DNA from: an uncultured Eubacteriales bacterium
GTDB taxonomy: Bacteria; Bacillota; Clostridia; Lachnospirales; Bianqueaceae
Reading direction: 5' to 3'
DNA length: 34,219 nucleotides
NCBI GenBank assembly: GCA_900316145.1
Contig: ONBQ01000122.1
Location: 1-34,219 of the forward strand
In this document: piece after piece, positions 9,517 through 20,341 of the stretch
Numbering within the stretch: position 1 is the first letter of the stretch
Layout of the letters: the number at the start of each line of letters is the position of its first letter
Translations under genes and position numbers: made by a program
Notes under the pieces: generated by a model
Databases searched by the model: none
Seen by the model: only the letters and a program-made list of their open reading frames with translations
Told to the model about the DNA's origin: nothing

Positions 9517-11085
9517 TTAGCGAATAAATGTCATCCAGATCATAAGCCCCGCGAAGGCCAGAAAGACCAGGCAGTTGACCAGCTTAATGATCGGGAACCG
9601 TTTTCTGGTCGATTCTGTCATATTCATGACATTGGCTCCGCCGCGGACCGCCAGGATCATGATACACTGCGGCAGGCACATAGCCGCGATATACAATACA
9701 AAGGCAAGGACCGTAAGCATACGGCTGTCAGAACCGCGGTTGAGCATATAGATGATCGTACCCAGGTAGATCTGGCCGGTGCACAGAAACTCTCCGGCTG
9801 AGATCAGTATAGCCGCCAGGAAGATCATCAGAAGCAGATATTTGCGGTTCCCATCCGCCATGACCTTCTTAATGATATTGTTGTTGAACCGGCGCAGCCT
9901 TTGCGGGAGCTGCGCGCGCACCTTGCCGTAATCCTCCCTCAACGTTGCGAAGAAATCAAGCATATTGAGGACTGCCAGATACAACGCCGCCCCGATCAAA
10001 ACGATATTCAGGACCAGCTGGACCTTGTCGATCCAGACAAAGTCGATCACGGAGACCAGGGAATACAGGCCGATGCCCAGCAGGAAATACGTTACGAACT
10101 TGCCGGCCATGAAAGTGAATCCCACTTTCAGGATCCGGCTCTTATCCATCATGATCAGGGAAAGAAGCAGGAACAGGATGGAGATCGAACAGGGGTTGAA
10201 ACCGTTGATAAAGCCGGTGAGCGCGATCGCCGGAAGGTCTCTCGCCTTCAGCGGTTCGATCTTGGAACCCGTTTTCGGATAAGCGAAGTTCAGGAAATCC
10301 CCCTGCCCGAGTGCTTTCTCCAGTCCGTTTATAATGGCGTCTCCGCCCGAAAGGTATCCTTTGGAGGAAAAGATGATCGGGACTTGCTGCTCGCTTTCCG
10401 GCACGTCATAGGCGTCAAACATGGCCCGCACTTTCTCGATGCCATCTGCCTCCGCGATACTGTAGGACTGGACCTCGACCGGTTTTCCATCGATCTCGGT
10501 CTCCAGGTCTGCCAGGTATTTTTTGACCCGTTCACAGTCATCACAGGACAAGGTGTAGAAAAAGCAGATCGTGTGCGCGTCCGGATCGACCTGGATACCG
10601 TCGAAGACAGCGCTTTTCGTATCCTCTTCCTCTGTTTCCGCTTCCTGATAAGTTGCCTTATATCCTTCGCCGTACTTGACAAAAATATCGCGGATCCCGT
10701 TGCGGATCTCCTCCAGGCCGCACAAGACATCTTCTCCGATGATGACACAAGGCACAGAGACATCCTGTCTTGTCTTTCCGATGCGGGCCAACTCCTCCTT
10801 CAGGCGGTCATTGCCGCTTTCCTGGAAGACGTTGATCGTATCGATCTCATAATGGTACTGCTCTTTGATATCTCCGACCGCTTCATTGAACACATCGAAG
10901 AACTCCTGTGTTCCGTTGCAGGTAGCGCAGGACGTTTCGTGAAAGAATAATATGGTAAAGCTGTCTTCTGTCTCTTCCGCCCGGATCTTTAGCCCGTCCG
11001 GCCATATCAGGAAGACCGCCAGCAGGCTCAGCGCGAGGCCGAGAAACCGTCCCCTTAAGCCAGCCGTTCGTTTACTATCGTTCAT
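9517..11085 (-). CDS. Membrane thiol-disulfide protein: two thioredoxin-like domains plus CcdA/DsbD-like domain
   Basis: A 522-residue redox protein. An N-terminal signal or anchor (15-30) leads into a first thioredoxin/glutaredoxin-like domain with C53-A-T-C56 and a cis-Pro-like VPC at 111-113. A second domain has C181-D-D-C184. From about 285 a polytopic membrane domain follows with about six helices. It has the CcdA/DsbD-type pair of membrane cysteines: C299 in GFNPCS and C435 in GEFLCTGQ. Such proteins pass electrons from the cytosolic thioredoxin pool across the membrane to extracytoplasmic thiols. Both soluble domains are N-terminal and probably outside the cell. The gene overlaps the fucosidase stop by ATGA (11082-11085), implying translational coupling. 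Its substrate is unknown. Confidence 0.82.
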   Translation of the reverse strand: MNDSKRTAGLRGRFLGLALSLLAVFLIWPDGLKIRAEETEDSFTILFFHETSCATCNGTQEFFDVFNEAVGDIKEQYHYEIDTINVFQESGNDRLKEELARIGKTRQDVSVPCVIIGEDVLCGLEEIRNGIRDIFVKYGEGYKATYQEAETEEEDTKSAVFDGIQVDPDAHTICFFYTLSCDDCERVKKYLADLETEIDGKPVEVQSYSIAEADGIEKVRAMFDAYDVPESEQQVPIIFSSKGYLSGGDAIINGLEKALGQGDFLNFAYPKTGSKIEPLKARDLPAIALTGFINGFNPCSISILFLLLSLIMMDKSRILKVGFTFMAGKFVTYFLLGIGLYSLVSVIDFVWIDKVQLVLNIVLIGAALYLAVLNMLDFFATLREDYGKVRAQLPQRLRRFNNNIIKKVMADGNRKYLLLMIFLAAILISAGEFLCTGQIYLGTIIYMLNRGSDSRMLTVLAFVLYIAAMCLPQCIMILAVRGGANVMNMTESTRKRFPIIKLVNCLVFLAFAGLMIWMTFIR

Positions 11086-15087: not shown

Positions 15088-17565
15088 TTATTTCGTCAAG
15101 GTGAAGATCATACTCAACAGGCGCAGACAGCAGGCATCCAGCTCCTCTTTCGCCAGCGAAAGATCATTCTTCTGCCCCAGCGCGTCAAGAATCTCCTGAA
15201 TATCGGACGGGTTGCCGGGCATGATCAGATCATTGCCTGCCTGTACACACTTTACGGCAGCGGAACCGCCATTCTGGTTCGTCGTCATCCAGTCCGTCAT
15301 GATGATACCGGTGAATCCCCATTCCTTACGCGCCGCGGTCGTGCATAGATCATAGCTGTTGGCGGTGTGTACACCATTGACCTTGTTATAGGAGGTCATG
15401 ATGGCTTTCGGGTGGGCTTCTTTGACCGCGATCTCAAAACCTTTCAGATAGATCTCACGCAGAGCCCTCTCCGAAACGATGCTGGACACGCCTCGTCTGT
15501 TTTCCTCCTGATTGTTGCAGGCGAAATGTTTGATCGTCACCGCGCAGTGCGGGTGGCTTTCCACGCCCCGGGTCAGGGCCGCGGCCATTTTTCCGCTCAC
15601 AAGCGGATCTTCTGAATAGTACTCGAAATTGCGTCCGCACAACGGGTTTCGATGGATATTCATGCCAGGCGCCAGCCAAACCTGGACGCCGGCCTCTTCC
15701 ATTTCCGTCCCGATCAGGTCTCCGACCTCTTCCATCAAGGCGGTATCGAAGGACTGCGCCAGAAGTGTACCGACCGGTATCGCGGAACAGAATTGATAAT
15801 GATCTTCCGCCCCTTCGTGCAGATACTCCGTCCCGAAGATCCGGTTTTCCAGCGCCTGATAGCCATTCATCATGTAGATGCTTCCATTTTCCGGATCAAC
15901 CTGGTAATGCTTCTGCAGGCGCAGTCCGGCCGGGCCATCTGCCAGGATGAGACGGGATACGCCCATGGATTCCAGACAAGGCGTGGTCTCGCCCGCCGCG
16001 CCAGGCACGGTATTGGCGGCTGAGCCGATGATCTCGGTGCTTAAGGCTCCCGGCTGGCCGCAGACCAAGCGGGACTTCTGCTCCGGGCTCATTTTCTGAA
16101 GGATCTGTTCAGCTTCCTCTTTCCAGGGCAGCTTATGGATGCTGTCTTTGATCCGGTTTAGGGTGAGATCCGTGATGCGTCGTTTTACCGCGTCATCGAT
16201 CACGATCATGCCCTCACAGGATGCTCTGTCCGGCATCGTCTCCGGCTTGATCTCCTTCAAGGAATCCAGCAGCGGACAAATGGGCGTCAAAGTTTCCAGC
16301 ACAGTGGTCTCCGTCAGAGACAAGCGGCACACCGTGCGGGTATCCATCTCGCCGGTCTTGTCACAAGTCTCTGTTTCCAGGATATACCAGCCTCTTTCCA
16401 TATAATACTGAGAACGGGCGGTATGATAGGAAGCCAGCCGCTCCAGGGGGAAGGTAAGCTTTACGTCTTCTTCCCGGCCGGGCTCAAGCACTCCGGTCTT
16501 GCCAAAGGCAACGAGGCGGCGGCGTTCTTTATTGCGCTCTCCCTCCGGAAGATCCGCGAACAACAAGACGACCTGGCGGCCCGCTGTATCTCCGGTATTC
16601 TGTACGGAAACCATTACACAGACCTGCCCGGCCTCCACGGCTGTCTCCGCTTTTGTAATGTCAAATGTAGTGTAGGAACGACCGTATCCGAAGGGATATC
16701 TTGGCTTCACGCCAAAGGTTTCAAAATAACGATACCCGACGTAAATGCCCTCCGTATATTTCTCCTCGATCACATTGCCGTTGTTATGGCTGAAGTTTTC
16801 GCTGCTGGGATAGTCGAAATACTGATACGCCCAGGTATCGGTCAATTTGCCAGAGGGAACGACCTTGCCCGTCAGGATGTCTGCCAGCGCGTGTCCTCCC
16901 TCCATCCCGGCCTGGGACATCAGCACCAGCGCCGAGACTTTAAGCTCATCCAGGAAGGACAGGTCTATGATCCCGCCCACGTTCAGGATGACGATGGTCT
17001 TTTCATAAAGGGTCGTGACGGTCTTGAGGTTCTCATACTCGTCCTCAGAAAGATAGTAATCCCCCGGTTCCGCCTTTCTGTCCGCCCCCTCGCCGGAGAT
17101 CCGGCTGATTACGAAAATCGCTGTTTCCGTGTCTTTTTTCTCGATCGGGCTTCCTTTTGGCATGGGCATAGGATTCGAAGCATGGGCATCATAGAGTTTG
17201 GCCCGGTTGCCCGGTTCTCCCGCGATCTCATAGATCTTCTGCTTCCACGCCTCGTAATTGGCTTTGTATTCTTCATCGTAAGATGCCAGCCAATCCTCAT
17301 TCAGGATCTCAAGGCCCGCGTCTCTGATCCCTTGCGTGATATTGACATTGCTGCGATTGTTGACCATGCCGGAACCTGTCCCGCCCTTTACGGTATAGGA
17401 AGCGCCGCCTCCATACAGAACGATCTTCTCTCCTTCTGAAAGAGGCAGAACTCCGTCATTCTCCAAAAGCACCATACCCTCTGCGGCTGCCCGTCTGGCC
17501 ACTGCCTGCGCGGCGATCTCATGGGGCGTGATCTCCATTGATGTGGTTCCCGGATACTTTTTCAT
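15088..17565 (-). CDS. GH3 glycosidase with permuted domain order
   Basis: A retaining beta-glycosidase (beta-glucosidase-like; beta-xylosidase or beta-N-acetylhexosaminidase not excluded). The domain order is permuted compared with usual GH3. The alpha/beta sandwich comes first (EGMVLLENDGVLPL, 29-42; SGEGADR, 157-163). Then comes a fibronectin-III-like domain after FGYGRSYTTF (292-301). The TIM barrel is last (about 480-815), with ADGPAG (542-547), KHFACN (679-684) and the nucleophile D758 in IIMTDWM. E159 in SGEGADR is the probable acid/base. This circularly permuted form is known from Ruminococcus albus and Butyrivibrio. The 825 residues have no signal peptide, so it is cytoplasmic. It starts 24 bases after the NanE-HD stop, with AAGGAG before the ATG, so it is co-transcribed. 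Confidence 0.93.
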   Translation of the reverse strand: MKKYPGTTSMEITPHEIAAQAVARRAAAEGMVLLENDGVLPLSEGEKIVLYGGGASYTVKGGTGSGMVNNRSNVNITQGIRDAGLEILNEDWLASYDEEYKANYEAWKQKIYEIAGEPGNRAKLYDAHASNPMPMPKGSPIEKKDTETAIFVISRISGEGADRKAEPGDYYLSEDEYENLKTVTTLYEKTIVILNVGGIIDLSFLDELKVSALVLMSQAGMEGGHALADILTGKVVPSGKLTDTWAYQYFDYPSSENFSHNNGNVIEEKYTEGIYVGYRYFETFGVKPRYPFGYGRSYTTFDITKAETAVEAGQVCVMVSVQNTGDTAGRQVVLLFADLPEGERNKERRRLVAFGKTGVLEPGREEDVKLTFPLERLASYHTARSQYYMERGWYILETETCDKTGEMDTRTVCRLSLTETTVLETLTPICPLLDSLKEIKPETMPDRASCEGMIVIDDAVKRRITDLTLNRIKDSIHKLPWKEEAEQILQKMSPEQKSRLVCGQPGALSTEIIGSAANTVPGAAGETTPCLESMGVSRLILADGPAGLRLQKHYQVDPENGSIYMMNGYQALENRIFGTEYLHEGAEDHYQFCSAIPVGTLLAQSFDTALMEEVGDLIGTEMEEAGVQVWLAPGMNIHRNPLCGRNFEYYSEDPLVSGKMAAALTRGVESHPHCAVTIKHFACNNQEENRRGVSSIVSERALREIYLKGFEIAVKEAHPKAIMTSYNKVNGVHTANSYDLCTTAARKEWGFTGIIMTDWMTTNQNGGSAAVKCVQAGNDLIMPGNPSDIQEILDALGQKNDLSLAKEELDACCLRLLSMIFTLTK

Positions 17566-17589: not shown

Positions 17590-18774
17590 TCACTGGAAAA
17601 GTGCTTCCAGAAGCGTTAGACCTGTCTTTGTTCGGAAGACCCGTTCCTTCGCGTGTCTGATCTGTTCTTCCTGATAATGGCCTTCCACCGCGTTCACCAG
17701 GAAATCCGCCTCCAGAAGGATGCGATGATCGATCCCTGCCACCGGGTCGATCGTATGATGATGACATACCAGATATATGATCCGTTCCGTTTCATCTTCC
17801 GAAAGCCCTGTGCCTTTGAGGAAATCACGCACTAAAGGCTCGCTTTCCTTTTCCTGAAGCATTCCATCCGCCGAACCATACCTGGCCCGGCAGAAGGGAA
17901 CCGCGATATCATGTATAACGGCTGCCGTTTCCAGGATGAACCGCGTTTCCTGATCCAGACCTTCCAGCATGCCAATAGTCCTGGCGTACGCATGGACCTT
18001 CAGAAAATGCTCGATATCATGCTGGTTTCCTTCCGCGGCCAGGATCATCTTTTCAAGGATCTCCTCCACCGAAGCCCGCTTCTGGGTGACGGCCTTCTGG
18101 AACCTTGCCGCGATCTCAAGGGGTCTTGTGATCGCTCCCCCAACTACCACCGCATAGGCTCCCTGCCGAAGCATAAAGGAAGCTTCCTCCGGAGCGTGCA
18201 CTTTTCCCTCTCCGATCACTGGGATCGACAGCGTCTCAGATAATCTTCGAACGATCTCATAATCCGGTCCGGCGCTTTGCGCAGACTGGGGCGTATACCC
18301 GCTCATGGTCGTACTCACCAGGTCAAAGCCCAGCTTTTCCGCTCTTACGCCTTCTTCAAAGGTCGAAATATCCGCCATGAAGATCTGATCCGGATACTTT
18401 TCTCTCATTTCCCGCATAAAATCTTCGATCCTGGATCCATCTCCCCGCTTCTGATCAGTGCAGTCGATGGCGATGACCTCGGCGCCGGCTTTTCTTAATT
18501 CTTCCACTTCTTTGGCCGTGGGCGTGATGTACCTGTCAAAGCCCTCATACTGGATTTTGATGAGGCCGATCACGGGCAGTCCGGTCTTTTCTTTAATAGC
18601 CAATATATCACGCACGCCGCAGGTCCGGATCATGGGACTTCCGGCCTCTTTCGCCGCCAGCGCCATACGGTCCATCAAAGTCCGTTCCGGATCATACAAC
18701 GGTTCCGTTTCCAAAGCCTGGCAAGAGATGATCAGTTTTCCTTTGATCCTCTCCAGAAGCTCTTGTTTTGTCAT
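17590..18774 (-). CDS. NanE-type ManNAc-6-phosphate 2-epimerase fused to an HD phosphohydrolase domain
   Basis: Residues 1 to about 230 match N-acylmannosamine-6-phosphate 2-epimerase, which makes GlcNAc-6-phosphate in sialic acid breakdown. Visible motifs are VRDILAIK (54-61), GLIK with the likely catalytic K73, YITPTAKEVEEL, AIDCTDQKR, MADIST (133-138), STTMSGYT (154-161), GEGK (188-191) and VVGGAITRP. Standard NanE ends near here. A second domain follows (about 235-394) with HD-family metal residues H261, H288-D289, H338-H340 and D357. No stop, frameshift or internal ribosome binding site separates them, so this reads as a true fusion. The target of the HD domain is unknown; nucleotides, sugar phosphates and signalling molecules are possible. 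It is the first gene of an operon with the GH3 glycosidase. Confidence 0.9.
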   Translation of the reverse strand: MTKQELLERIKGKLIISCQALETEPLYDPERTLMDRMALAAKEAGSPMIRTCGVRDILAIKEKTGLPVIGLIKIQYEGFDRYITPTAKEVEELRKAGAEVIAIDCTDQKRGDGSRIEDFMREMREKYPDQIFMADISTFEEGVRAEKLGFDLVSTTMSGYTPQSAQSAGPDYEIVRRLSETLSIPVIGEGKVHAPEEASFMLRQGAYAVVVGGAITRPLEIAARFQKAVTQKRASVEEILEKMILAAEGNQHDIEHFLKVHAYARTIGMLEGLDQETRFILETAAVIHDIAVPFCRARYGSADGMLQEKESEPLVRDFLKGTGLSEDETERIIYLVCHHHTIDPVAGIDHRILLEADFLVNAVEGHYQEEQIRHAKERVFRTKTGLTLLEALFQ

Positions 18775-18916: not shown

Positions 18917-20341
18917 ATGTTAGTTGATACCAAAGCAAGAGTCGGCGTATTTTCCATCGCGCTTGGCGCTTATCTTCCGCAGTTTCCTTCCCTGGTCCCT
19001 GAATTCGAAGGCCAGTACGAAGCTTTTAAGAAAACCCTTCCCGATACGGTCGAGATCATCGATGGCGGTCTGGTGACCACCAAAGAGCTGGCTATGGCCG
19101 CCGGCGACAAATTCCGCGCCGCGGATGTCGACCTGGTCATCCTGCAGCTTCTGACCTACGCCACTTCCTATAATATGCTTCCCGCGGTCCGTGATCTGGA
19201 TGTACCTGTCGTTCTGGTCAATGTCCAGAAGAAAAAGGCCCCGGACTACGCCACCACTGATACCCCCACCTGGCTGGGCGAGCTCTACGCCTGCGGCGCA
19301 GTCGGTGAAATGGTCGCCGATCTGGAGCGCGCCGGCAAGCGTCACGCTGTCATCACCGGCGTGGTAGAAGGCGGAGACCCCATCGTCCAGGCCGAGATCG
19401 AAGACTGGTGCCGCGCCGCTCAGGTGCGCCGTCGCTTCCGCGACCTCAACATCGCGCAGATCGGCCGTCCCTACCCTGGCATGATGGATCTCTACATCGA
19501 CGAGACCAACCTCTACCATCGCATGTGGCTCTACACCAAGCAGTTTGACTGGGAAAAGATGTGGGCCATTGCCGATAACATCACAGACGAAGACGCCATC
19601 CGCGCCAAAGCCCAGGACATCCTGGACACCTTCGAGATCGAAGGCGGCGGCACCATCGAAAAAGTCTGGGATATGGCCAAATATGTCGTAGCCTTTGAAC
19701 AGTGGGTCAAGGATGAACAGCTTGGCCTGGTCGCCTCCCATTATGATGGCTTCGCCCAGGGCGTTGCCGGCAAGCTCGACAGCATGCTCATCCCCGCCTT
19801 CTCCATGCTCATCAAACAAGGCACCGCCTGCGCCGTAGAAGGCGATATCAAAGTCGCCATGGCCATGAGCATCTTAAAGACCATCGCCGGCACCGGACAG
19901 CTTTCCGAAATGTACTCCATCGACTTCAACGAAGACATCTGCATCATCGGCCATTCCGGCTCCGGTGACGCCGACATCTCCCAGGCTCATAAGCCCACCA
20001 TGAAGATCGTACCCGTCTTCCATGGCAAGACCGGCGGCGGCTATCTGACCCAGTTCTATCCGCCGACCAACACCCCCATCACCTTCCTTGGCATCACCCA
20101 GGACAAAGACGGACATTTCAAGTTCGTCGTCGCGGAAGGCGTCAACGAAGAAGGCCCCATCTTCATGTTCGGTGACACCAACATGCGCATGCGCTTCACC
20201 TGCGGAGCCCGCGACTTCTGCAACCGCTGGTCCGAAGCCGGCCCCACTCACCACATGGCAGCCGCGGCCGGACGCCACATCGACACCATCCTCAAAGTCG
20301 CCAAAATCTTCAACGTACCCGTCGATATAATCACCAGATGA
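18917..20341 (+). CDS. L-arabinose/L-fucose isomerase family protein
   Basis: A 474-residue cytoplasmic protein resembling L-arabinose isomerase and its homologues, which interconvert aldoses and ketoses using a divalent metal. Four residues could form the metal site with about the right spacing: E308 (VEGDIK), an acidic residue near 336-340 (IDFNED), H346 (IIGHSGSGD) and H445/H446 (PTHHMAAA). Family length and fold order fit AraA (about 500). However, it lacks close similarity to standard AraA, and no araB or araD is nearby, so the substrate (arabinose, fucose or another deoxy or amino sugar) is open. Codon use is strikingly C-ending (GCC, ATC, ACC, CCC, GAC) compared with neighbours, suggesting high expression or different ancestry. 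Monocistronic, ending eight bases before hairpin A of the inverted-repeat element. Confidence 0.8.
   Translation: MLVDTKARVGVFSIALGAYLPQFPSLVPEFEGQYEAFKKTLPDTVEIIDGGLVTTKELAMAAGDKFRAADVDLVILQLLTYATSYNMLPAVRDLDVPVVLVNVQKKKAPDYATTDTPTWLGELYACGAVGEMVADLERAGKRHAVITGVVEGGDPIVQAEIEDWCRAAQVRRRFRDLNIAQIGRPYPGMMDLYIDETNLYHRMWLYTKQFDWEKMWAIADNITDEDAIRAKAQDILDTFEIEGGGTIEKVWDMAKYVVAFEQWVKDEQLGLVASHYDGFAQGVAGKLDSMLIPAFSMLIKQGTACAVEGDIKVAMAMSILKTIAGTGQLSEMYSIDFNEDICIIGHSGSGDADISQAHKPTMKIVPVFHGKTGGGYLTQFYPPTNTPITFLGITQDKDGHFKFVVAEGVNEEGPIFMFGDTNMRMRFTCGARDFCNRWSEAGPTHHMAAAAGRHIDTILKVAKIFNVPVDIITR

Follow-up and report, generated by a model that had tools for sequence, protein, structure and literature searches.

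The NanE–HD Reading Frame and Its Neighbors

The window, by which we mean the whole 34,219-nucleotide stretch analyzed here, contains on its minus strand a single ATG-to-TGA reading frame (17590–18774; 394 codons, 394 aa) that encodes a NanE barrel (residues 1–231) followed by an HD domain (residues ~234–394), both intact and in one polypeptide. An earlier note on this DNA had placed the two domains in one frame, and the matches to PF04131, NF002231, and PF01966 bear this out. The features are as follows.

18082–18774, minus strand: NanE epimerase domain, residues 1–231 (PF04131, NF002231, and solved-NanE matches)
17593–18075, minus strand: HD hydrolase domain, residues 234–394 (PF01966, family-invariant positions, AlphaFold model, and fold matches)
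18070–18087, minus strand: junction, approximately residues 230–235 (NanE homologues end and stand-alone HD proteins begin)
15088–17565, minus strand: permuted GH3 glycosidase, outside the fusion and downstream of NanE (Pfam domain order and congener orthologues)

In the full-length model, both domains are confident (mean pLDDT 92.8, pTM 0.76), with the lowest confidence at residues 211–230, and comparison with solved NanE enzymes gives Z 27–32. A promoter and terminator scan returned matches at chance level only.

The GH3 gene lies on the same strand, its start codon 24 nt past the stop codon of the HD part. Its Pfam domains run in the order GH3_C (31–278), Fn3 (332–396), and GH3_N (593–818), in agreement with the earlier description of the enzyme as permuted. 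N-acetylglucosaminidases of the NagZ kind carry the signature KHFPGHG...D(S/T)H, at the place of which the window GH3 has KHFACNNQEENR, and the protein's best NCBIfam matches, to models of alpha-arabinopyranosidase and beta-glucosidase, do not reach the cut-off. Because the NagZ signature is missing and these are the closest models, the GH3 gives no pointer to amino sugars.

Divergently beside the NanE–HD gene lies a fucose/arabinose-isomerase-like gene (18917–20341), which is absent from this place in three congeners and has the highest GC3 among the window genes measured (0.743). Elsewhere in the window, the 522-aa product of 9517–11085 has SfLAP/DsbD-like membrane and glutaredoxin-like matches, but these are weak and none reaches its Pfam cut-off; a congener homologue with 59% identity lies in L071.

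The Epimerase and Hydrolase Domains

PF04131 matched residues 34–230 with E = 4.7e-60 (202.5 bits; cut-off 27), and the NCBIfam model of the NanE subfamily, NF002231, scored 274.5 bits over residues 2–231 (cut-off 189). The solved NanE enzymes of S. pyogenes and C. perfringens are 49–50% identical to this domain, with Z ~31–32. All six residues of the active-site set are present (Q19, R50, K73, D135, E189, and R217), aligning in that order with Gln11, Arg40, Lys63, Asp124, Glu180, and Arg208 of S. aureus NanE, in which six catalytic or binding residues are known from mutagenesis and structure and which dimerizes via its C-terminal helix (PMC8482478). The HD domain comes straight after this helix; by analogy, a NanE dimer bearing two HD domains is plausible. 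The same genome has one nagA gene above cut-off and four DHDPS-family genes, a complement compatible with an ordinary ManNAc-6-P route.

PF01966 matched residues 254–346 of the second domain (E = 1.5e-5; 25.7 bits against a gathering cut-off of 22). When this domain was aligned with 46 homologues, the metal set H256, H288/D289, H339/H340, and D357 was unchanged in all 47 members, so that the metal residues are indeed kept among homologues. The set proposed in the earlier note was correct for H288/D289, H339/H340, and D357 and needs revision elsewhere: position 261, given there as the first His, is Y in 19, H in 18, and W in 7 of the 47 members, and the first His is instead H256; H338, also included there, varies (38 of the 47 members have H). 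The invariant positions of the alignment include H256, H288, D289, G304, Q307, H339, H340, E355, D357, N361, E364, T382, and G385, and the window domain keeps 14 of 14 family-invariant positions.

What might such a domain hydrolyze? An AlphaFold model of the HD part alone (residues 235–394; window 17593–18072) reached a pLDDT of 97.7, and its best matches are HD hydrolases (Z 13–16), the YpgQ-like enzymes being closest (Z 15–16; 15.0–15.1 for YpgQ, 5DQV/5DQW) and alarmone hydrolases and PgpH following at Z 12–14. The top sequence-profile match is the HD-GYP protein 4mcw (E = 3.3e-6). The full motif of the polynuclear HD phosphodiesterases is H..HD..H..HH..D (PMC8177086), and its middle His is missing here, with no conserved His between H288/D289 and HH in the 47-member alignment. 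Among NCBIfam models, none spans the HD family; the window domain has no match, and scattered members have weak ones. Characterized HD phosphatases of similar fold use nucleotides as substrates, and those of YpgQ are NTPs and dNTPs (PMC8177086). Given the activity of YpgQ, a nucleotide-type compound is our best guess and, by this analogy, the most likely substrate of the HD domain.

Relatives of the HD Domain

The HD family, which has no name, comprises very widespread clostridial stand-alone proteins, mostly of 160–180 aa (47 aligned members). The genes neighboring 15 of these stand-alone HDs share no common theme: neighbors recur only between species pairs that are near-identical and in two SbcCD pairs, and the 15 neighborhoods showed no amino-sugar genes and no link to signaling genes. 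Genomes from different families can carry nearly the same HD protein (L074/L083), and plasmid and phage records hold a few relatives with 34–49% identity; none was found in viral contigs. The scattered contexts, the plasmid and phage relatives, and the cross-family copies fit a mobile HD gene.

In the tree, the window HD falls into a 13-member clade (support 100/99) that otherwise consists of stand-alone proteins from several bacterial families, and the HD of congener G001 sits in another clade, with that of G005. G007, which belongs to the same family as the window genome, has a stand-alone HD in the window HD's clade, so that the donor may lie within the family and lateral transfer from outside is not required.

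Two other enzymes carry a domain of this HD family C-terminally: a Cof-type HAD phosphatase (PF08282, 2.3e-53; 438 aa; L138, G610:C66) and a carbon-nitrogen hydrolase (CN_hydrolase, PF00795, 9.1e-40; 449 aa; L140, G237:C8). The three fused HDs lie at three separate places in the tree, so the joins look independent; such independent fusions to unrelated enzymes suggest that the HD domain was attached opportunistically and is no marker of amino-sugar metabolism. Two further loci have related arrangements: a tandem pair of HD paralogues in the same reading frame with a stop between them (L114, G297:C146), and an HD that follows, in the same frame, ~150 residues without a Pfam family (L139, G605:C1), which may be a fusion or a mis-called start.

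Distribution of the Fusion and the Congener Locus

We surveyed more than 1,100 genomes at four levels (genus/family, order, class, and phylum), drawn evenly at one genome per species, with the surveys partly overlapping. Separate NanE and HD genes were many, and the NanE–HD fusion occurred in one genome, so that there is a single fused sequence (n = 1), from one draft genome, and the architecture is not conserved in related genomes, a point the earlier note had raised. In the survey match lists, no genome placed a NanE gene less than 20 kb from an HD gene, and a scan of genome contigs yielded 16 matches of the NanE type plus a weak one (L047), with no fusion among them. L054, which resembled a 396-aa NanE frame, was rejected; its NanE stops at a TAG, and a YhcH-like gene and a gene for a ROK-like kinase lie next to it. 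Long open frames in G691 (665 aa), G297 (351 aa), and G234 were checked as well, and none is a fusion in the frame of the HD. Literature searches found no described NanE–HD protein, and the earlier note, too, named NanE fusions to sugar kinases but none to an HD domain; the architecture is new, a modest finding.

Three congeners (G001–G003) have a NanE orthologue of 237–238 aa (66–69% identity) with no HD, in the gene order AMP-ligase (90% identity), NanE, permuted GH3 (74–75%), which is syntenic with the window. There, the NanE stop and the GH3 start codon are at most a few bases apart, and the HD unit of the window is placed exactly between NanE and GH3. A profile search for the HD family found no second copy in the window genome and a single copy in G001; nothing convincing turned up in G002 or G003. 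The direction of change, gain here versus loss in the congeners, rests on these three genomes. The earlier note had named two outcomes that would count against its reading, a fusion confined to this assembly with separate genes in close relatives, and poorly conserved metal residues in the HD domain; close relatives do carry an unfused NanE at this locus, but the metal residues are conserved.

The first residue of the stand-alone HD relatives aligns with ~A234, and the NanE relatives terminate around residues 233–238; the join consequently retains essentially all of both proteins. It is nearly clean, consisting of a whole NanE minus its stop and a whole HD minus its start. The remaining two forward frames have stops near the junction, so the shared open frame is not trivial.

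Origin and Meaning of the Fusion

We consider it likely that a lineage-specific gene fusion has tethered two enzymes whose activities are not consecutive steps of one route. This reading builds on what was observed: one continuous frame, catalytic sets that are intact in both domains, orthologues at the same locus that lack the fusion, an HD family of otherwise stand-alone proteins, and its independent joins to other enzymes. The ancestor would have carried the NanE–GH3 pair that persists in the three congeners; a separate HD phosphohydrolase gene would have been inserted between the two, and the loss of the NanE stop and the HD start would then have produced one protein with both enzymes. The NanE part would dimerize via its C-terminal helix and go on converting ManNAc-6-P to GlcNAc-6-P, and the HD part would hydrolyze a small phosphorylated substrate of its own, most likely of the nucleotide type as in YpgQ, with the two activities simply tethered. 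The fusion is probably fortuitous, a mobile HD hydrolase joined to a working epimerase, and both parts are probably active and not coupled.

Could the choice of partners nevertheless be more than chance? Fusion to three metabolic enzymes could hint at a shared metabolite-repair theme. The HD domain would then be a mobile damage-control module, put time and again on the C-termini of metabolic enzymes (NanE, HAD phosphatase, and CN-hydrolase), and in a truly bifunctional NanE–HD it would act on, or protect against, some compound of the ManNAc-6-P/GlcNAc-6-P route. We see a small chance that this is so.

A true bifunctional amino-sugar enzyme, in which the HD domain receives its substrate from the epimerase and removes the phosphate of ManNAc-6-P or GlcNAc-6-P, or else eases sugar-phosphate stress, is unlikely. 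Such an enzyme would agree with the two intact active sites, with the position of the gene 24 nt upstream of a glycosidase, and with the route-compatible genes of the genome (the single nagA and the four DHDPS-family genes). On the other hand, the congeners keep the NanE–GH3 pair without the HD, which leaves the dedicated amino-sugar route of the earlier note unsupported. The amino-sugar role proposed there for the HD domain fares no better, as the family stands alone in scattered contexts with no amino-sugar neighbors, is fused elsewhere to unrelated enzymes, and has similar-fold phosphatase counterparts that use nucleotides (PMC8177086), while the GH3 is unlike an N-acetylglucosaminidase.

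Less likely again is that the HD domain degrades or senses a signaling nucleotide (an alarmone or a cyclic dinucleotide) and so tunes the epimerase. The profile match to the HD-GYP protein and the fold similarity to alarmone hydrolases and PgpH point in this direction, but the family lacks the middle His of the H..HD..H..HH..D motif, the HD genes have no link to signaling genes, and the fusion is unique to one genome.

Is the fusion itself real? Adjacent but separate NanE and HD genes would look fused if an assembly or base-calling error had erased the stop between them; the genome is a draft (199 contigs, 92% complete), the fusion is known from this assembly alone, and one base change could mask a stop at codon 232. 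Yet the gene order of the contig agrees with that of the congeners on both flanks, and both parts stay in frame with family-like residues on either side of the junction. Given this synteny and these residues, a base-level error at the junction appears unlikely, and we regard the artefact as distinctly improbable; even if it were true, NanE and HD would be neighbors here and nowhere else sampled. Least probable of all is that the gene yields two products, the full fusion and a free HD from an internal start. In its favor, the in-frame GTG at residue 236 and ATG at 243 sit where stand-alone HD proteins start, and a GGAGGAG lies 12 nt ahead of ATG243. Against it, this spacing exceeds the usual, the purine stretch is explained by consecutive glutamate codons, and translation from residue 243 would lose most of the first helix.

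For the NanE protein itself the gain is small, and no new pathway is supported. The broader interest lies in an uncharacterized, very widespread clostridial HD family that has become attached independently to at least three unrelated enzymes, each time at the C-terminus. The fusions to the HAD phosphatase and the CN-hydrolase may hint at its substrate: if the family acts on a common cell metabolite, the fusions are clues to what that is; otherwise, they illustrate how readily a small mobile enzyme can be added to others with no functional link between them.

Comparison with Known Systems

The fusion has the barrel, the active-site residues, and the C-terminal helix in common with the NanE family (PF04131; C. 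perfringens 4UTT and S. aureus 6VVA), and differs from these enzymes in the 160-aa HD domain that follows the helix. With the stand-alone clostridial HD proteins of 160–170 aa (e.g., G354 L082 and G381 L086), the window HD shares 52–55% identity and the 14 invariant residues; those proteins are separate genes, whereas the window HD is joined to NanE.

The YpgQ-like hydrolases (5DQV/5DQW, 2PQ7, 2QGS, and 3DJB) share the HD fold (rmsd 2.3–2.7 over 138–145 residues) and the H..HD..D set, but their identity to the window HD is only ~21–23%. Unlike them, the window HD family has an additional invariant HH pair and an invariant Q307 between HD and HH. The substrate residues of YpgQ, which is ~22% identical to the window HD, are R136, F140, H158, and H25. 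Finally, L141 (G908:C59) encodes a 574-aa protein that combines a kinase-like N-terminus with a C-terminal NanE. In this kinase–NanE, as in NanE–HD, the epimerase is part of a multi-domain protein; however, its partner is N-terminal and kinase-like, plausibly serving a neighboring step, and there is no HD domain.
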